This document shows positions 5,199-39,130 of a stretch of DNA of 40,899 nucleotides, piece after piece (position 1 is the first letter of the stretch; each line of letters opens with the position of its first letter). The position numbers and the translations under genes were made by a program. The stretch comes from Chthoniobacterales bacterium. GTDB taxonomy: Bacteria > Verrucomicrobiota > Verrucomicrobiia > Chthoniobacterales > UBA10450. The DNA lies in the NCBI GenBank assembly GCA_025934755.1, contig JAICWQ010000006.1, positions 1 through 40,899 of the forward strand. Reading direction: 5' to 3'. Under the pieces are notes generated by a model. It was not told the DNA's origin. It did no database searches and saw only the letters and a program-made list of their open reading frames with translations.

Positions 5199-6773
5199 TC
5201 AAGCATAGTACCGCCAATTGAGGTTGGGGAAAAGATTGTCGCGCCATTCGCAGTCCGCGAGAAATTTTTCATCGACCTGACCGCTCATCAACTGGTCGTT
5301 CAAGGCGTTGAATCGCGCGAGATGGTCCTGGGTTCGTTTGCTGGCGTACTCGCGCGCTGTCCCGCTGCGCATTAGAAACGCCCAGTCGCTCGATTGCGCG
5401 AGCAACAGTTCGCGCGCCAGTTGTTTCAGAACGCGATCGGTGTGTGCGCTTGAATCGTTCTGGTGGGCCTGGGCTAATTTACTCATTCGCTGGGCGGCAG
5501 CATGGAGGTGCGGATAGATCCACGAATTGTGTTCGTCGATCCAAACTTCGAGATGGCCCCTGTCGCCCCAGCTTGATTCGGCCGGTTGGATTGTTTGCTG
5601 GGTTGAATTTGCCATCAGATAATCGGTTGGCGTCGTAAGTCGAAAGTCGGCTTGATCGGCCGCTGTTTTCCGAATCATCATTTCGAGGAACCGCGGTCCT
5701 TCAAACCACCAATGCCCGAACAATTCCGCATCGAATGGCGTGACGAGAATTGGATCGTACTCCAGGTCTGCGAGCCTTCGAAATTGTGCGCCGCGCTGTT
5801 TGACGAAATCGGTTGCGTGGGCCTCGGCTGCTTTTTCGGCCTTGGCGCGATTGTAGATCTCTTTGTGTTTCTTTCGACCAGTGATCCGGTGGTACTTTAC
5901 CCCGGAAAATTTTCGAACGCCGCGAGCCACCGGGCCGAGATGTTCCAGAGGCAAATCAAATCCAACATCGCGGTAGAATTCGCGATACGCCGGATCGCCG
6001 GGATACCCTTCTTCCGCGCTCCAAACCTGGCGGCTCGAGTCGCGGTCGCGGGCAAACGCGGCCGGCCCGGCCGGGGTGTAACATGGCGCGTAAATCGCGC
6101 GTTGCGGCTGAGGGTTTCCCAACAGCAGTCCATGGGCATCAAGAATGAACCAGCGAGCGTTTGCTTCTTGTAGAATTGAATCGAGTCCCGGCGCGTATGC
6201 GCATTCCGGCAACCAAAAGCCGGCGGGGGCCGAATCGAAAACGTCATGAAACGCGTCGCGACCGATCAGGACCTGCGCTCGCGCCGCTTCGGGCGATTGT
6301 TGTTGAATCAGCGGCAGCAAACCATGGGTCGCTGCGCAGCCAATGATTTCGATCGCGCCGGTATCGCGCAATTGCCGAAATGCTTCAAGCAGGTCGCATC
6401 TCCACTCCTCGACGAAAAATCGGCGGCTTTCGGTGAAAAGATCGAAGTAGAATTGGGAAAGCTCGGCAAGCGCGGGCTCATTTTGATTTCGTTTTCGTTC
6501 ACGAACCGTGAGATCGATCAGAAGCTCGAGATGTCGAATATATCGCTCGCACATCAGCCGGTCTTGCAACATCGCGCACAAGGTGGGCGTGACCGACAGG
6601 GTCAGCTTGAACGGCACCTTATCGTTCACCAGCCGCTGCATCACCTGCAACAAGGGAACGTAGGTCTCGGTGATTGCTTCAAAGAGCCAGTCTTCTTCGA
6701 GGAAATGTTCGTGCTCCGGATGTCGGACGAACGGCAGGTGCGCGTGAAGAATTAGCGCGAGATTGCCCGGCAT
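5199..6773 (-). CDS. GH57 1,4-alpha-glucan branching enzyme (DUF1957 type)
   Basis: This enzyme makes alpha-1,6 branches in glycogen-like glucans in the cytoplasm. The ~524-residue protein opens with the GH57 N-terminal barrel motif NLALILHAHLPFVRHPEHEH. It carries the catalytic nucleophile in GFWLPECAY (Glu190) and the acid in PFDAELFGHWWFEGP (Asp348). Both positions agree with the bacterial GH57 branching enzymes of ~520 residues. The C-terminal helical DUF1957 part contains SSWGDRGHLEVWIDEHNSW and QSSDWAFLMRSGTA, a typical substrate-binding signature. The ATG at 6773 is preferred over a TTG three codons upstream. A GH57 amylase with another specificity is possible, but the DUF1957 motifs favour branching. 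No glycogen synthase gene is in view. Confidence 0.88.
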   Translation of the reverse strand: MPGNLALILHAHLPFVRHPEHEHFLEEDWLFEAITETYVPLLQVMQRLVNDKVPFKLTLSVTPTLCAMLQDRLMCERYIRHLELLIDLTVRERKRNQNEPALAELSQFYFDLFTESRRFFVEEWRCDLLEAFRQLRDTGAIEIIGCAATHGLLPLIQQQSPEAARAQVLIGRDAFHDVFDSAPAGFWLPECAYAPGLDSILQEANARWFILDAHGLLLGNPQPQRAIYAPCYTPAGPAAFARDRDSSRQVWSAEEGYPGDPAYREFYRDVGFDLPLEHLGPVARGVRKFSGVKYHRITGRKKHKEIYNRAKAEKAAEAHATDFVKQRGAQFRRLADLEYDPILVTPFDAELFGHWWFEGPRFLEMMIRKTAADQADFRLTTPTDYLMANSTQQTIQPAESSWGDRGHLEVWIDEHNSWIYPHLHAAAQRMSKLAQAHQNDSSAHTDRVLKQLARELLLAQSSDWAFLMRSGTAREYASKRTQDHLARFNALNDQLMSGQVDEKFLADCEWRDNLFPNLNWRYYA

Positions 6774-6789
6774 GACTAACAATTAGCGT

Positions 6790-6897
6790 GTCATTCCGAA
6801 CGGAGCGAGGAATCTCCGATAAGGTGATGGATTAGAATGGCTAACATGTTTGACGTTCGCTTTGCTTGTGATGGCCCTCGCTTTCGCTCGGGACAGC
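6790..6897. repeat. second copy of the GTCATTCCGAA-type palindromic repeat
   Basis: The left half is GTCATTCCGAACGGAGCGAG followed by GAATCTCC. A degenerate right half, CCCTCGCTTTCGCTCGGGAC, lies at about 6875-6894. It occupies the whole 116-base gap between the KDPG aldolase and GH57 genes. No gene is visible here. Confidence 0.55.
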
Positions 6898-6898
6898 G

Positions 6899-7558
6899 CT
6901 AGCGGGAAGCGCGCACTGCGTTCATAAACTCTACCGCGCGTTTCGTTAACTTATCCCACTCGCCCCTTCGAATCAGCGCCGGATCAAACACGCTGCCAAC
7001 GGCGCCGACTGCGACTGCGCCAGCCTTGAACCAGTCGGCGACATTTGCAGCGTCCACCCCGCTCGTCGGCATAATCGGGATCTGCGACAGCGGGCCACGC
7101 ACTGCTCTTAAATAATCCGGCCCGAATTTTACTGCGGGAAAGATTTTCACGATATCGCCGCCTAACGAGTGCGCAGTGTAAATCTCGGTCGGCGTGAACG
7201 CACCGGGAATGATTGGGACGTTGAGTTCCCGCGCTTCAGCAATGACTTCAGGCAATACGCACGGACTGACCAGAAACCGCGCTCCTGCCGTGACAGCTGC
7301 GTGAACCTGCTCGCTGGTCAGGATTGTTCCGGCCCCGATAAGCAACTGTTCGTCGTTGTTATCAGCGAGCTTTGCAATCGCGCGGGATGCTTCTGGAAAA
7401 CTGAATGTAATCTCGATCGCGCGAAATCCTCCCGCAATCGCGCACTTTGCCGCTCCCAGCGCTCGCTCGATCGAATCGGTTCGAATCACTGCGACCGCGC
7501 GTTCGGCTTTGATTCGGGTAATGACTTCGGCCTTATCCAGCGAAATCGGTCTGTTCAT
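6899..7558 (-). CDS. eda: 2-dehydro-3-deoxy-phosphogluconate (KDPG) / 4-hydroxy-2-oxoglutarate aldolase
   Basis: This class I aldolase cleaves KDPG to pyruvate and glyceraldehyde-3-phosphate in the Entner-Doudoroff or uronate pathways. The 219-residue protein has the complete family pattern: AVAVIRTDS, then GFRAIEITFSFPEA with catalytic Glu49. Next is IGAGTILT, then FLVSPCVLPEVI, and then the Schiff-base lysine Lys138 in GGDIVKIFPA. MPTSGVDAANVADWFKAGA forms the phosphate-binding end. Length is normal (about 210). The start is the ATG at 7558. An inverted repeat (7594-7610) lies upstream and could be an operator. No edd gene is nearby, so it may serve sugar-acid degradation or 2-keto-4-hydroxyglutarate cleavage; the substrate cannot be decided from sequence. 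Confidence 0.9.
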   Translation of the reverse strand: MNRPISLDKAEVITRIKAERAVAVIRTDSIERALGAAKCAIAGGFRAIEITFSFPEASRAIAKLADNNDEQLLIGAGTILTSEQVHAAVTAGARFLVSPCVLPEVIAEARELNVPIIPGAFTPTEIYTAHSLGGDIVKIFPAVKFGPDYLRAVRGPLSQIPIMPTSGVDAANVADWFKAGAVAVGAVGSVFDPALIRRGEWDKLTKRAVEFMNAVRASR

Positions 7559-7593
7559 CGAAAAAAGTGATGAAGCCGGACACGAAGAGAAAC

Positions 7594-7610
7594 GTGATTC
7601 CTTAAATCAC
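7594..7610. promoter_or_regulatory. inverted repeat upstream of eda, possible operator
   Basis: GTGATT-CCTTA-AATCAC forms a 6-bp dyad with a 5-nt centre, 36 bases before the aldolase start. The location would suit a repressor site or a short leader hairpin. No regulator gene adjoins it. Confidence 0.25.
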
Positions 7611-7632
7611 TAAATCGTTAACTCGCAAATCC

Positions 7633-8844
7633 TTAGAGGGTCCGGCAGAAATCCTGGAACCGGTCGAGACCTTTTTTGATAATGTCGATGCTGGTCGCGT
7701 AACTGAATCGGATTGTGCGATCATCGCCAAACGCCGCGCCTGGCACCACAGCCACATTCGATTTGCTGAGTAATCGGTCGGCGAAATTTTGAGAGGTGAG
7801 CCCGAGCTGGCTGATGTTTACCAGGACATAAAACGCTCCCTGCGGTTTCACCGCGGTGATGTTCGGGATCTTTGAGAGACGATCGATCATGTAATTGCGG
7901 CGCATGTCGAACTCGTCGCGCATGTCGGAGACCGATTGTTGATCGCCCTTGAGCGCCGCGAGTGCGCCGCGTTGTCCGAACGAGCAGGGATTCGACGTGC
8001 TGTGGCTCTGGATAGAATCGACCGCTTTTGCGACTGCTTCCGGGGCCGCCAGATAACCGAGCCGCCAGCCTGTCATCGCGTAGGACTTGCTGAATCCGTT
8101 AACCGTGATCGTTAGGTCGTAGGCTTCCTTGGAAATCGACGCGACGCTAACGTGCTTGGCGTCGTCATAAACCAGCTTCTCGTAAATTTCGTCGGACAAA
8201 ATGTAAATGTCTTCCCCGCTGGCGATTTCCACCAAAGCCTGCAACTCTTCGCGGGTGTAAACCGCTCCGGTAGGATTGCCCGGAGTGTTTAGGATCAACA
8301 TTTTGGTGCGGGGAGTCATCGCGTTCTCGAAGTCCTCAGCGCGCAGTTTCCAATTGTTGCGCTCCATCGTTGGAACAATCACCGGTTCGGCGCCGGCCAG
8401 CCGCACCATGTCCGGATAACTGACCCAGTAGGGCGCAGGAATGACTACTTCGTCACCCGGCTGACAAGTCGCAAGAATCGCGTTGTAGCACGAATGCTTC
8501 GCGCCATTGCTGACAACCACCTGGCTCGCGCGATAGGTCAGTCCATTGTCGGCCGCCAGTTTTTCGGCAATCGCCGCCCGCAGCTCCGGAATCCCGGCAC
8601 TCGGAGTGTACTTAGTGAAACCCGCCTGCAACGCCTCGATCGCCGCCTGTTTGATGTGCTCCGGCGTGTCGAAATCGGGTTCGCCCGCGCCGAAACCGCA
8701 GACGTCGATTCCTTCGGCCTTCATCGCTTTCGCTTTGCTGTCGATTGATAGAGTGAGCGAGGGGGTCAGTTGAGCAGCGCGTTCGGAAATTTCCATTGTC
8801 GAATTCGTTTCTAAGTCAGGGAGTTGCACATTATTTGCGGCCAT
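7633..8844 (-). CDS. aspartate aminotransferase, PLP fold type I (class I/II)
   Basis: The enzyme transfers the amino group between aspartate and 2-oxoglutarate, linking the TCA cycle to amino acid synthesis. The protein (403 residues from ATG 8844) shows the I-gamma subgroup signature: VCGFGAGEPDFDTPEHI, KYTPSAGIPELR, NTPGNPTGAVY (Asn190), YILSDEIYEKLVYD (Asp218, Tyr221). The PLP lysine Lys253 is in NGFSKSYAMTGWRLGY, with Arg261 for the phosphate. The most familiar start, MEISERAAQLTPS, is an internal ATG 16 codons later (8796), so the true start may be there. The ATG at 8844 overlaps the end of the NDK gene by 14 bases, suggesting coupled translation. It could also act on other amino acids such as prephenate, as some I-gamma enzymes do. 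Confidence 0.9.
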   Translation of the reverse strand: MAANNVQLPDLETNSTMEISERAAQLTPSLTLSIDSKAKAMKAEGIDVCGFGAGEPDFDTPEHIKQAAIEALQAGFTKYTPSAGIPELRAAIAEKLAADNGLTYRASQVVVSNGAKHSCYNAILATCQPGDEVVIPAPYWVSYPDMVRLAGAEPVIVPTMERNNWKLRAEDFENAMTPRTKMLILNTPGNPTGAVYTREELQALVEIASGEDIYILSDEIYEKLVYDDAKHVSVASISKEAYDLTITVNGFSKSYAMTGWRLGYLAAPEAVAKAVDSIQSHSTSNPCSFGQRGALAALKGDQQSVSDMRDEFDMRRNYMIDRLSKIPNITAVKPQGAFYVLVNISQLGLTSQNFADRLLSKSNVAVVPGAAFGDDRTIRFSYATSIDIIKKGLDRFQDFCRTL

Positions 8845-33731: not shown

Positions 33732-33782
33732 TTGGCCCCGGAATGGAATAGGGCGTGCTCTGACAGGGTGATTCTCCCGGGC

Positions 33783-34403
33783 ATGAAAGCTAACAACAAA
33801 ACCATGCTGACCGCACTGTTTGGCGTGATATGGGCGGGTACAGCTGTTCTTGGCGGACACGCGTTGCTCAAATATGAAAACGCGCCCGGTGAAGTCGGCC
33901 ACGTTTCCTCGGCTTGGCCGGCCCATTCATCCATTCAACTTGCTTCCGACCGCGCGACACTGGTGATGTTTGCCCACCCCCAATGTCCCTGTTCGCGCGC
34001 GAGCATGGATGAGCTCGCCCAAATTATGGCGCGGGTTCAGGGCAAGGTGCGAGCCTATGTCCTTCTCTACACGCCGCGTGGCGCCAGCCGCGATTGGCAG
34101 AACACGACCACTTGTCGAAACGCAGCAGCGATTCCCGGAGTCACGGTTTTGTCCGACATTGATGGTGCTGACGCAGAGCGTTTCGGCGCCGAAACGTCAG
34201 GTCACACCTTCTTGTTCGATCCAAACGGCCGGTTGCTTTTCAATGGGGGCATTACCGCTTCGCGTGGGCACTCCGGCGATAATGCGGGCGAAAGTGCGAT
34301 CGTTTCTTTGATTGACAATAATCTTCCCAAATTTACGCGGACCCTGGTTTTTGGCTGCTCCTTCAAGAGCCAGACGCGAAGAGATTTGAAATGTTTGAAG
34401 TGA
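33783..34403 (+). CDS. redB: RedB-like membrane-anchored thioredoxin-fold protein
   Basis: From the ATG at 33783 the protein has 206 residues. Residues ~9-28 are a membrane anchor (TALFGVIWAGTAVLGGHALL). The redox motif CPCS (Cys68 and Cys70) sits in LVMFAHPQCPCSRASMDELA, and the later segments AERFGAETSGHTFLFDPNGR and LLFNGGITASRGHSGDNAGE are typical of the RedB-like family known next to histidine kinases. It has a third and fourth cysteine (Cys111, Cys192). The C-terminal end is RTLVFGCSFKSQTRRDLKCLK-like. Its 3' end overlaps the hybrid kinase start by 13 bases. Likely periplasmic, with a role in redox sensing or copper/thiol chemistry; the name RedB is from family resemblance, not proven function. 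Confidence 0.75.
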   Translation: MKANNKTMLTALFGVIWAGTAVLGGHALLKYENAPGEVGHVSSAWPAHSSIQLASDRATLVMFAHPQCPCSRASMDELAQIMARVQGKVRAYVLLYTPRGASRDWQNTTTCRNAAAIPGVTVLSDIDGADAERFGAETSGHTFLFDPNGRLLFNGGITASRGHSGDNAGESAIVSLIDNNLPKFTRTLVFGCSFKSQTRRDLKCLK

Positions 34404-36964
34404 TGCGAAAGCCGGCGAAGCATGGATCGTCCGCGGCGCGGGCGGATCAATTGTTCCGGGAACAGCAGCACGAAATCTACGTTAAAACCGACCAGCTTTT
34501 CGCAAGACTGATGTTTTTCCAGTGGATTGGCGGCGTCGCTATGGCGCTGATCGTCTCGCCTTACACTTGGACCGGACAAGCTCGCGCGATTCATGTCCAC
34601 GTTTGGGCGGCGATTTTTCTGGGCGGAGCAATCAGTTTCTTCCCGATTTGGCTTACCCGGGTCTGGCCGGGAGCAGCGATTACGCGCCACGTCATCGCAG
34701 TCGCGCAGATGTTGATGTCGGCATTGCTGATCAGCGTGACGGGCGGACGAATTGAAACCCACTTTCACGTGTTCGGGTCGCTGGTGATTCTCTCGTTTTA
34801 CCGGGATTGGCGCGTCCTTGTCCCTGCCACGATCGTGGTGGCACTCGATCATTTCATTCGTGGCATCTACTGGCCCTATTCGGTTTACGGTGTTCTGACC
34901 GCGAGTCCGTGGCGCTCGTTTGAACACGCTGCCTGGGTTGTCTTCGAAGACGTCTTTCTCGTGATCTCCTGTTTCCGAAGCATTACCGAAATGCGTTCCA
35001 TCGCGAATCGAACGGCCGCGCTGGAATTGAGCGAGCAGAACTCCCGTCAGATTTTTCAAGAAGCTCCAATTGGGATGGCAGTCGTTGGATTGAATGAAAA
35101 ATTTCTGCAGGCAAACGCGAAGCTTTGTCAGATGGTCGATTATTCGGAACAGGAACTCCGAGATCGAACGCCGCTTGAGATTACTCATGCGGACGACGTC
35201 GTCTTCAGCCGTGAAATCGCCAAAGCGATGTTGAACGGCGAAGTCCACAGCCGTGTGGAGAAGCGCTACGTCCGTAAAGACGGCGGAATAGTGTGGGCTG
35301 CGCGCACCGGCTGCGTGATACGGGACGAGGCCGGCAACCCTCGACATTTCCTCATCATGGTCGAGGACATCTCCAAGCGAAAAAAAGCCGAAGAAGCGGT
35401 GCGCGATTCGGAAGAACGCTACCGTCTCCTGTTCGAAACCAATCCGTATCCGGTGTGGGTTTACGATCCGGAAACGCTTGCCTTTCTCGCCGTGAATCAA
35501 GGTGCAATCGATTGCTACGGCTTTTCCCGCGAAGAGTTTCTGTCGATGAAAATAAAAGACATTCGACCATCGGAGGATGTTGTCGCTTTGCTCGACGATG
35601 TTTCCCAATCTTCGCCCGAGACCAGCAGATGGCGACATCGAAAAAAGAACGGAACGGTGATCGACGTCGAAATAACCGCTCGTCCAATTTCATTCAACGG
35701 AAAGCAGGCCCGACTTGTTCTGGTCAATGACGTCACTGAGCGTTTGCGTGGCGAAAGAGCGCTGGAGCAGGCAAGAAACGAAGCCGATCGGGCGAACAAA
35801 GCCAAGAGCGAATTCCTCTCCCGGATGAGCCACGAGCTGCGCACGCCTCTCAATGCTATTCTCGGATTTGGTCAACTTTTGGAGCGACAAAATCCAACGC
35901 CGATCCAGCGCAATAGGATTGGACACGTGATAAACGCCGGACGTCACCTCCTTGGATTAATCAATGAGGTTCTCGATATCAGCCGAATCGAGGTTGGGCG
36001 GATGCAACTCTCCCTCGAACCGGTTTGCCTCGCCGAAACGATCGGAGAAACGCTTGATTTAATGCGACCGCTTGCTCAGGAACGCAATATCAAGTTAACG
36101 GCAGACATTGATCTGGATGATAGCGTGCACGTCCGGGCGGACCGACAACGTTTGAAGCAAGTACTGCTGAATTTGCTAACTAACGGGGTGAAGTACACGC
36201 CAATTTCCGGAAGCGTGACGGTTTCCTGCGCTGGAAACGGAACGGAGAAACTACGAATTCGTGTGGCCGATACCGGTCCCGGCATTGCCAAGGAGAAGTT
36301 AGCCCGCCTGTTCACTCCATTCGATCGTCTTGGTGCGGAGCAGTCGGAGGTAGAAGGAACCGGACTTGGGCTCGCGCTGTCCCAGCGTCTTATGCATGCG
36401 ATGGGCGGCTCGATTGGAGTCGAAGACAGTCAGGGCAAGGGAAGCATTTTTTGGATTGAGCTTCCGAGAATTAAGTCGCCTTTGGAACAAACTCGTCCGC
36501 GCAAATCAAAAGTTTGCCAACCTCGACGCCGTGAGGATGGGAAGCGCACGGTACTTTACATCGAAGACAACCTGTCGAACTTGACCCTCGTAGAACAGCT
36601 CCTGGAGGAACGACCCGAGATCGAGCTGCTCAGTGCGATGCAGGGTCGAGTCGGATTGGATTTAGCCCGCCAACATACTCCGGATTTGGTGTTGTTGGAT
36701 CTCCATCTCCCGGACCTTCCTGGTTGGGAAGTGCTCTCCAAATTGAAAGCCGACCCTTCCACCGCGCAAATTCCGGTGGTGGTCATCAGCGCGGACGCCA
36801 CTACCCCTCAAGTGAAACGGTTATTGAAAGCCGGCGCAGCAAATTATTTGACCAAGCCGCTCGACGTCGCGGAGTTTTTCCACGTGGTCGATAAACTGGG
36901 GCGGTCGACTAATGGAGCAACGAAGTCGGCTTCGGTGCCTGATTTGATGGAGGTGCATTCCTGA
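34391..36964 (+). CDS. hybrid histidine kinase with His-rich membrane sensor, two PAS domains and receiver
   Basis: The 857-residue protein begins with a membrane region of about 6 helices (about 36-210). It holds distinctive histidines and acidic residues: GGRIETHFHVFGSLVILSFY, ALDHFIRGIYWPYSVYG and SFEHAAWVVFED. Two PAS domains (about 215-330 and 340-455) follow. The dimer/phospho-acceptor box is FLSRMSHELRTPLNAILGF (His481). The catalytic ATPase has NLLTNGVKYTP, ADTGPGIAKEKLARLFTPF and GTGLGLALSQRL. The receiver at the C-terminus has LYIEDNLSNLTLVEQLLEE and LVLLDLHLPDLPGW (phospho-acceptor Asp770). An ATG at 34403 is an alternative start in a TGATG overlap with the RedB stop. It precedes a stand-alone response regulator. 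Confidence 0.93.
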   Translation: MFEVMRKPAKHGSSAARADQLFREQQHEIYVKTDQLFARLMFFQWIGGVAMALIVSPYTWTGQARAIHVHVWAAIFLGGAISFFPIWLTRVWPGAAITRHVIAVAQMLMSALLISVTGGRIETHFHVFGSLVILSFYRDWRVLVPATIVVALDHFIRGIYWPYSVYGVLTASPWRSFEHAAWVVFEDVFLVISCFRSITEMRSIANRTAALELSEQNSRQIFQEAPIGMAVVGLNEKFLQANAKLCQMVDYSEQELRDRTPLEITHADDVVFSREIAKAMLNGEVHSRVEKRYVRKDGGIVWAARTGCVIRDEAGNPRHFLIMVEDISKRKKAEEAVRDSEERYRLLFETNPYPVWVYDPETLAFLAVNQGAIDCYGFSREEFLSMKIKDIRPSEDVVALLDDVSQSSPETSRWRHRKKNGTVIDVEITARPISFNGKQARLVLVNDVTERLRGERALEQARNEADRANKAKSEFLSRMSHELRTPLNAILGFGQLLERQNPTPIQRNRIGHVINAGRHLLGLINEVLDISRIEVGRMQLSLEPVCLAETIGETLDLMRPLAQERNIKLTADIDLDDSVHVRADRQRLKQVLLNLLTNGVKYTPISGSVTVSCAGNGTEKLRIRVADTGPGIAKEKLARLFTPFDRLGAEQSEVEGTGLGLALSQRLMHAMGGSIGVEDSQGKGSIFWIELPRIKSPLEQTRPRKSKVCQPRRREDGKRTVLYIEDNLSNLTLVEQLLEERPEIELLSAMQGRVGLDLARQHTPDLVLLDLHLPDLPGWEVLSKLKADPSTAQIPVVVISADATTPQVKRLLKAGAANYLTKPLDVAEFFHVVDKLGRSTNGATKSASVPDLMEVHS

Positions 36965-36965
36965 T

Positions 36966-37496
36966 ATGACTAGAACGAACGCTTGGATCAACGACTCGGC
37001 GCAGCTCGCCAAAATGAAAATTCTCATCATCGATGATGAGCCGGTGAACGCCGCGCTGTTGGAGGAAATTCTGATTGAAAATGATTACACCCGCTTCGAA
37101 TCAGTTACTGATTCAAAACAGGCGCTCGATTTTACCAAGAGTTTTCAACCTGATCTCGTGTTGCTCGATCTGATGATGCCCCCGCCCGACGGATTCACCA
37201 TCCTGGAACGTTTGCGCCTCGAAACAGACGACACATTTCTTCCCATCGTCATTCTCACCGCAGATACAACGGAGGAATCGAAGCGCCGGGCCCTCGCCGC
37301 CGGAGCGACCGATTTCTTACTCAAGCCATTTGATCATGTCGAAGTGGCATTGCGGATTCGCAATCTTCTCCAGAGCAGGTTCGCCCATCTCCTGCTGGAC
37401 AACCAGCGGTCCGCGCTCGAAGAAGCGGTCCGCGAGCGGACTTCTGAGTTGCAGGCAACCATCGCAAAACTCCAATCCTGCGTCCCGTCTAGTTGA
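36966..37496 (+). CDS. stand-alone response regulator receiver protein with coiled-coil tail
   Basis: The 176-residue protein is a CheY-like receiver (about 17-135): MKILIIDDEPVNAALLEE with the acidic pocket Asp23/Asp24. Asp68 is the phospho-acceptor in PDLVLLDLMMPPPDGFTILE. LTADTT (Thr98) and FLLKPFDHVEVAL (Lys120) complete the site. The tail (about 137-170) is a predicted coiled coil with QRSALEEAVRERTSELQATI and has no DNA-binding or output domain. This is a common form before or after hybrid kinases. A good SD (GGAGGT at 36949-36954) precedes the ATG at 36966; the hybrid kinase stop is one base upstream. It would take phosphate from the kinase and signal by protein contact or through the coiled coil. 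Its stop adjoins the next, convergent gene without a gap. Confidence 0.92.
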   Translation: MTRTNAWINDSAQLAKMKILIIDDEPVNAALLEEILIENDYTRFESVTDSKQALDFTKSFQPDLVLLDLMMPPPDGFTILERLRLETDDTFLPIVILTADTTEESKRRALAAGATDFLLKPFDHVEVALRIRNLLQSRFAHLLLDNQRSALEEAVRERTSELQATIAKLQSCVPSS

Positions 37497-38128: not shown

Positions 38129-39130
38129 ATGCGCGCAATGGTTCTCGAACAAGCAAGGACGCCTTTGGTGTTGCGAGATGTTCCGACACCGGAGCCCGCT
38201 GCCGGACAACTTCTCGTTCGGGTAAACGCCTGCGCCGTCTGCCGCACTGATCTTCACATTGTCGACGCCGAACTTACCGAACCCAAGCTGCCGCTCATTT
38301 TAGGTCATCAAATCGTCGGCACAGTGGAAGAAATTCATGTCTCGGTTAAGGGCCAGTCCGGCTCGGACTTCAAGGTCGGAGACCGTGTAGGCATTCCCTG
38401 GCTTGGCTGGACCGATGGCGATTGCGTTTATTGTCGATCCGGACGCGAGAATTTGTGCGACCGGGCGAAGTTCACCGGTTACACCATCGACGGCGGCTAC
38501 GCCGAATTCGCGGTGGCTGACGCGCGCTACTGCTTTCATTTGCCCGACGAATATGAAGATATCGACGTCTCGCCCCTGCTTTGTGCCGGATTGATCGGTT
38601 ACCGCGCCTATCGCAAGACTGGGGATGCGAAACGGCTCGGCCTTTACGGCTTTGGGAACGCCGCGCATCTGGTCACCCAACTTGCCATTTACGAGAAAAA
38701 GGAAATCTATGCCTTCACCCGTCCGCGCGACGAGTCAGGACAGAAAGAGGCACGTTCGTTAGGCGCAGTGTGGGCCGGCGGATCGGACGAAACACCGCCG
38801 GAAAAACTCGATGCCGCGATCATCTTCGCGTCAGTCGGCCCGTTGATTCCGGCGGCGCTCCACGTTATGGCCAAGGGCGGTATCGTGGTGTGTGGTGGAA
38901 TCCACATGAGCGACATTCCATCATTTCCCTACAATGATCTTTGGAATGAACGCGTGATCACCTCAGTCGCAAACCTGACCCGCCGAGATGGCGAAGAGTT
39001 TTTCAAAATCGCGCCGGGAGTGCCGGTGAAAACAAAAGTGGAGGTTTTTTCACTGCACGACGCAAATACCGCCCTCGACAAATTCCGGGCCGGCAAATTG
39101 TACGGCACTGCTGTGCTCAAAGTTTCATAA
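38129..39130 (+). CDS. zinc-dependent alcohol dehydrogenase family protein
   Basis: This medium-chain dehydrogenase/reductase oxidises an alcohol or reduces an aldehyde with NAD(P). The 333-residue protein has the catalytic zinc ligands Cys38 (VNACAVCRTDLH), His60 (PLILGHQIVGTVEE) and Cys152 (SPLLCAGLIGYRA). The structural zinc lobe GWTDGDCVYCRSGRENLCDR has Cys99, Cys102 and Cys110, but the first of the usual four cysteines is Asp96. The Rossmann part has LGLYGFGNAAHLVTQLAIYE, close to the usual GxGxxG pattern. The closest familiar groups are AdhP/AdhA-type ethanol dehydrogenases. Start ATG 38129 is preceded by a weak GGAA; the gene is divergent from 37497-37994. Substrate is unknown. Confidence 0.9.
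   Translation: MRAMVLEQARTPLVLRDVPTPEPAAGQLLVRVNACAVCRTDLHIVDAELTEPKLPLILGHQIVGTVEEIHVSVKGQSGSDFKVGDRVGIPWLGWTDGDCVYCRSGRENLCDRAKFTGYTIDGGYAEFAVADARYCFHLPDEYEDIDVSPLLCAGLIGYRAYRKTGDAKRLGLYGFGNAAHLVTQLAIYEKKEIYAFTRPRDESGQKEARSLGAVWAGGSDETPPEKLDAAIIFASVGPLIPAALHVMAKGGIVVCGGIHMSDIPSFPYNDLWNERVITSVANLTRRDGEEFFKIAPGVPVKTKVEVFSLHDANTALDKFRAGKLYGTAVLKVS

Follow-up and report, generated by a model that had tools for sequence, protein, structure and literature searches.

The three-gene locus

The window examined here, a 40,899-nucleotide stretch of DNA from a Chthoniobacterales bacterium (contig JAICWQ010000006.1, positions 1 to 40,899), encodes on its forward strand, at 33783-37496, a RedB-like membrane-anchored thioredoxin-fold protein (hereafter RedB), a hybrid sensor histidine kinase and a lone receiver. 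Our analysis identifies this locus as a two-component sensor that combines an unnamed membrane domain with a dedicated thioredoxin-like partner. The redB frame opens with an ATG at 33783 (an alternative open-frame start, TTG, lies at 33732) and its stop ends at 34403, yielding a protein of 206 residues. The kinase gene (34391-36964, 857 residues) overlaps redB by exactly 13 bases, and the gene for the lone receiver (36966-37496, 176 residues) starts one base after the kinase, confirming the layout described in the initial annotation. RedB and the membrane domain are each present once in the genome (2.97 Mb assembly), whose closest RedB relatives are found in metagenome assemblies of Spartobacteria and other Verrucomicrobia.

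The AlphaFold2 model of RedB (pLDDT 94.4) combines an N-terminal anchor helix, residues 4-32 (33792-33878), with a thioredoxin fold. The closest solved folds were 3u5r, 2cvb and 2ywi (Z ~15), with ResA types at Z ~11; these matches place RedB among TlpA/AhpC-TSA-like thioredoxin folds, with an active site of the CxC and not the CxxC type. Within the CPCS motif at residues 68-71 (33984-33995), C68, P69 and C70 were invariant across 82 aligned sequences, as were W17 in the anchor helix and C192 near the C-terminus, which lies in the sequence VFGC (codon at 34356-34358). The earlier description of a membrane-anchored thioredoxin-fold protein with this motif thus agrees with the model and the alignment. 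The designation 'RedB-like' is justified solely by position, since in Myxococcus the next gene downstream encodes a RedC-type kinase; neither Pfam nor NCBIfam yielded a match above cut-off, and the DUF6436 profile (PF20029) reached 14.3 bits, below its curated cut-off of 27.3. The CRP/FNR protein called RedB in Rhodobacter is an unrelated protein of the same name. Assignment of RedB as a Sco copper chaperone was rejected, given its CPC rather than CxxxC motif and an hhalign probability of 0.1% against an SCO protein.

Domain searches resolved the kinase into an N-terminal membrane sensor domain of six helices (KinN, residues 1-215; 34391-35035), two PAS domains (residues 219-327 and 354-450; 35045-35740), HisKA and HATPase_c domains (residues 471-534 and 584-693; 35801-36469) and a receiver domain (residues 721-833; 36551-36889). 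The histidine-containing motifs noted previously are all present in the membrane domain (ETHFHVFG at residues 122-129, DHFIRG at 153-158 and FEHAAW at 177-182), and the alignment extends the set of conserved histidines to H68 and H70 (34592-34600). In the third protein, a receiver is followed by a charged tail prone to form helices; there is, as originally described, no output domain.

Conserved pairing of RedB with the sensor domain

To define the genomic context of RedB, its alignment was scanned against 84,980 species and the 80 best loci were analysed. These loci derive from Verrucomicrobia, Planctomycetes, Acidobacteria, Myxococcus relatives, Omnitrophota, Elusimicrobia, Latescibacterota, Chloroflexi, Melainabacteria, Rhodothermales and others. 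The membrane domain adjoins RedB in 79/80 of them: in 72 it is intact, directly downstream and on the same strand, and in six it is frameshifted or truncated where the contig ends. In the remaining two, the domain is broken and on the opposite strand (L149), or the contig ends (L102). The L149 copy (6405-7709) is a frameshifted sensor domain that possibly reflects an inversion or an assembly error. Among 117 related genomes, 17 of the 18 strong RedB matches were directly upstream of the membrane domain; in the exception (G016), both are present, 128 kb apart.

Co-occurrence, counted in 665 genomes of three phyla, gave an equally consistent result. RedB occurs in 9/288 genomes of the window's phylum, and a strong match to the domain was obtained in exactly these nine. 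Of the 198 genomes in the phylum to which the Bryobacterales genome G119 belongs, eight encode RedB, all with the domain, and one other has the domain alone; the corresponding figures for the phylum of the Myxococcus genome G118 are 49/179, all with the domain, and 12 (Fisher 6e-33 for Myxococcota). Pooled, the domain was present in 66/66 RedB genomes, and 586 of the 665 genomes have neither gene. The domain was detected in just 1/194 genomes of the phylum that includes the Obscuribacterales genome G120. On the basis of the adjacency and co-occurrence counts, the association of RedB with the domain is not due to chance, which settles in the negative whether the two families are random neighbours.

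Variants of the arrangement were also observed. Locus L202 (contig 87 of G467) contains a tandem RedB-RedB pair followed by the sensor domain, that is, a duplicated partner. A RedB lies away from any copy of the sensor in L291 and L292 and in the related genomes G665, G670, G671, G673, G675, G676, G678 and G679; in L291 and L292, the RedB gene, with a CTC motif, sits between genes for a hibernation-factor-like protein and an aldo/keto reductase.

We then compared the divergence of RedB, the membrane domain and the kinase core (HisKA-HATPase) across 69 RedB loci. Mean pairwise identity reached 0.60 in the membrane domain, against 0.435 in RedB and 0.31 in the kinase core. The sensor domain is thus twice as conserved as its own kinase core, which is unusual, as is the case whenever a sensor domain is better conserved than the catalytic core. 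Divergence of RedB correlated with that of the membrane domain (r 0.64, partial 0.56; Mantel 0 of 1000), and the partial correlations with the kinase core were 0.29 for RedB and 0.16 for the membrane domain. Because RedB divergence tracks the sensor, and the sensor barely tracks the kinase core, the evolutionary unit is RedB plus the sensor domain and not RedB plus the kinase. At least 10 bacterial phyla have kept this pairing, with repeated exchange of the kinase attached to it. Ordinary operon hitch-hiking, in which RedB and the kinase would be functionally unlinked, is a general possibility for neighbouring genes, but it is contradicted by the adjacency, the complete co-occurrence and the correlated divergence, as well as by an equivalent pairing of thioredoxin-like proteins with the domain in chemoreceptors (see below), and we consider it hardly credible.

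The output most often attached to RedB-linked domain copies is a histidine kinase (68/71), with one chemoreceptor, and a receiver is present in 43/71. In a census of neighbouring genes, only signalling genes were enriched downstream (receivers in 25/67, histidine kinases in 12), and no physiological gene was enriched either upstream or downstream of the RedB loci. Only close relatives share the window's lone receiver, which is lineage-specific and stands outside the conserved unit. Of the sensor-to-phosphorelay arrangement proposed in the initial annotation, the coupling of RedB to the membrane domain is strongly supported, and the lone receiver is not part of what is conserved.

The histidine site, its partners and its relatives

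The membrane domain matches no Pfam or NCBIfam family, and neither a relative of known structure by sequence search of the PDB nor a Foldseek match at E 0.001 was obtained. Its AlphaFold model (pLDDT 92.8) comprises six helices (residues 11-55, 69-91, 96-116, 123-137, 140-160 and 173-219). From the helix limits of the model and the arginine-bearing inner loops, we infer that the N-terminus is inside and that all six conserved histidines are directed towards the periplasmic side. Across 76 RedB-linked sequences, H68, H70, H124, H126, H154 and H179 are conserved at 96-100% (97% for H68 and H70); the membrane histidines are conserved, and so is the CPC motif. When chemoreceptor and archaeal relatives are included, H124, H154 (34850-34852) and H179 (34925-34927) are invariant and E122 is nearly so. 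Residues E122 and H124, encoded together with H126 within 34754-34768 (ETHFH), would form with H154 and H179 a candidate buried Glu/3-His site, to which H68, H70 and H126 are added in the RedB-linked form.

To evaluate the relationship between this site and the partner protein, 193 copies of the domain were surveyed, 112 beside a thioredoxin-like gene and 81 without one. E122/H124/H154/H179 are complete in 112/112 linked copies and broken in 31/81 unlinked copies, corresponding to about 14 changes on the tree. The partner and the histidine site thus belong together, because the site is intact in linked copies and often lost in unlinked ones. It is mainly this tie between site integrity and partner presence that leads us to propose that RedB acts on the histidine site. 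With a probability of roughly 0.48, we suggest that RedB works with the kinase's membrane domain as one sensory unit, in which a periplasm-facing, probably metal-binding histidine site is serviced by RedB.

The same data bear on the possibility that RedB helps the domain to fold or assemble, as a disulphide or membrane-protein chaperone might, and has no role in sensing. Such an activity would account for linkage with the domain rather than with the kinase core. The family alignment, however, reveals no conserved cysteines in the domain that could serve as substrate, and partner presence tracks the integrity of the histidine site specifically, making this explanation improbable in our estimation.

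The same domain, at 25-30% identity, forms the N-terminus of chemoreceptors in Pseudoalteromonas, Marinobacter, relatives of the Verrucomicrobia and haloarchaea, with homology between the chemoreceptor and kinase versions established by profile comparison (99.8%, E 7e-30). A gene for a DUF6436 protein adjoins the domain in all Pseudoalteromonas copies and in the Pseudomonas plasmid copy found, and a third, unnamed family of CxC thioredoxin-like proteins lies beside it in three genomes of the window's phylum. Both share homology with RedB along the entire chain, from the anchor to the C-terminal cysteine equivalent to C192 (hhalign: DUF6436, 92%, P 6e-7; third family, 94%, P 7e-8). As judged from these profile alignments, RedB and DUF6436 belong to one partner superfamily. 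DUF6436 proteins resemble RedB in their membrane anchor, their CxC and C-terminal cysteine, and the domain that they adjoin; they differ in that their partners are chemoreceptors, and the RedB proteins fall under the Pfam cut-off. At two chemoreceptor loci (L173 and L174), the CxC-less partners retain the membrane anchor and the C-terminal cysteine. One Marinobacter copy has an SCO family protein as its neighbour instead, and stand-alone copies of the domain occur, such as that in a GGDEF-EAL protein of Granulicella.

The conservation of cysteines across these families raises the question of whether RedB itself might be the sensor, with oxidation of CxC/C192 signalled by docking and the histidines serving a structural or proton-sensing role. 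The invariance of C68, C70 and C192 in RedB, the retention of CxC in the two further partner families and a fold closest to thioredoxin/TlpA/ResA-like proteins are all consistent with a thiol-disulphide sensor. The core histidines, however, outlast the cysteine partner, as haloarchaeal and some bacterial copies keep the E/H/H/H set with no partner, and two partners devoid of CxC are found beside an intact site. We therefore regard a thiol-based mechanism as unlikely, albeit deserving of consideration.

The haloarchaeal copies are relevant to a different proposal, in which the histidine pairs would ligate haem b within the membrane to form an oxygen or redox sensor, RedB would keep the site or its haem reduced, and the haloarchaeal relatives would be aerotaxis transducers of the HtrVIII type. 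This domain is indeed carried by six-helix chemoreceptors of haloarchaea, and HtrVIII, the only six-helix transducer listed for Halobacterium, has oxygen as its signal (PMC3579733) and is said to bind haem in its six-helix region (PMC13401364). HtrVIII is likened here by description, however, and the COX1 profile matched neither the Haloarcula chemoreceptor nor the window kinase; we judge a haem-based sensor of this kind to be rather unlikely. HtrVIII also differs from the window system in its chemotaxis output, and the haloarchaeal domain copies have no directly adjoining thioredoxin-like gene. The haloarchaeal neighbourhoods included one denitrification island and otherwise no pattern. A Halobaculum copy, the chemoreceptor of L192, is plasmid-encoded, and nirK lies in the same region together with halocyanin, oxidase-subunit and radical-SAM/RiPP genes.

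Proposed mechanism and related systems

Thioredoxin-fold chaperones serve cytochrome oxidase copper. We propose a metal site with a dedicated partner because an outer Glu/His cluster beside a tethered CxC protein resembles these oxidase-copper chaperones. In this model of a RedB-serviced site, the Glu/His residues would bind a metal, most likely copper, with haem or another metal being possible, and RedB, tethered by its helix, would place its CxC thioredoxin fold in the periplasm. By analogy, RedB would load or reduce the metal, or maintain the active redox state of the site. The state of the site may lie in its metal, its redox poise or a bound gas, for instance O2 or NO; this state would control the kinase by way of the long final helix and the PAS domains, with phosphate moving first to the internal receiver and from there to the lone one. 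A phosphorelay is likely because the kinase, the internal receiver and further receivers are all present. Copper is weakly favoured because SCO and nirK/oxidase genes adjoin the chemoreceptor relatives; haem with an oxygen signal, suggested by analogy, would be the next choice.

Several observations weigh against a metal site serviced by RedB. No conserved copper, haem or respiration gene was found near the 80 RedB loci, RedB does not belong to the Sco family, and ten related genomes of myxobacteria have a RedB that is separate from the sensor domain. CxC is missing from two chemoreceptor partners although the sensor histidines beside them are kept, and the haloarchaeal copies keep the site with no thioredoxin-like gene directly beside them. 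In addition, the linked copies are mostly close members of one clade and many unlinked copies retain a complete site; the link between partner and site may in part reflect a general relaxation in unlinked paralogues.

By extension, the domain could define a sensor class not described before, with a metal or haem site inside the membrane that is loaded or kept reduced by a partner and that would sense O2, NO or copper at the outer face. The outputs of such a class would be kinases, chemoreceptors and diguanylate cyclases, its range would take in archaea as well as many bacterial phyla, and its partners would come from the RedB/DUF6436 superfamily. We put this broader interpretation forward tentatively, as a possibility that we would sooner doubt than accept. 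Bacterial sensors whose membrane histidine site has a thioredoxin-fold protein of its own to service it are, as far as we know, few. Our literature search on RedB, on DUF6436 and on the pairing returned no functional work, in line with the initial statement that the combination has no described function.

The Red system of Myxococcus offers the most informative comparison. To our knowledge, neither the signal of RedC-RedF nor the function of RedB has been assigned; RedC-RedF are reportedly required for timely development, as worded in the title of Higgs et al. 2005. The locus of Myxococcus vastator and Hyalangium encodes RedB, a kinase with the membrane domain described here, a double receiver, a soluble kinase, in which no HisKA was detected, and a single receiver. 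Since this order matches the T1-R1R2-T2-R3 arrangement of M. xanthus redCDEF (PMC3018481), RedC-RedF, a four-component phosphorelay, is the closest studied system, with M. xanthus likened by gene order and the sequences taken from M. vastator and Hyalangium. As in the window, the RedB gene immediately precedes that of a RedC-type kinase bearing the sensor domain, whereas the window has a PAS-bearing hybrid kinase and a lone receiver, and neither a double receiver nor a second kinase. The sensor pair is therefore homologous and the relay different. Our results provide a candidate input for the Red developmental pathway, convert an orphan annotation into a two-protein sensor model that spans many phyla, bring RedB and DUF6436 together as one superfamily of partners and name specific residues for mutation.

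A further parallel is found in Rhodobacter, where PrrC/SenC, a membrane-tethered thioredoxin-fold (Sco) protein, is encoded with the six-helix redox kinase PrrB/RegB, which has the motif GGxxNPF. The window likewise encodes a tethered thioredoxin-fold protein and a six-helix kinase, but GGxxNPF is absent from kinase residues 1-215, RedB has CPC in place of the Sco CxxxC, and no similarity to Sco was detected. Structural comparison of the domain model with six-helix cyclases gave Z 11.2 for the membrane domain of ImcA (193 residues, rmsd 4.1) and Z 10.2 for that of AC9 (190 residues, rmsd 3.4), values within the helical-bundle noise of up to ~13. In M. tuberculosis Cya, an outer cation site controls activity (PMC9433096). 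These cyclases (ImcA, AC9 and Cya) differ from the window domain in that they have no detectable sequence relation to it and no reported histidine cluster.

As for the genes flanking the locus, an RND pump 5' of the three genes was rejected as a member of the unit, being absent from relatives' loci, and the gene downstream of the lone receiver is unrelated and on the opposite strand. A zinc alcohol dehydrogenase is encoded at 38129-39130 of the window, and in Myxococcus (L123) a 57% identical homologue precedes RedB by 0.85 kb. None of the other 79 RedB loci has such a homologue; the dehydrogenase was not retained as a unit member, and we treat its presence as coincidence.

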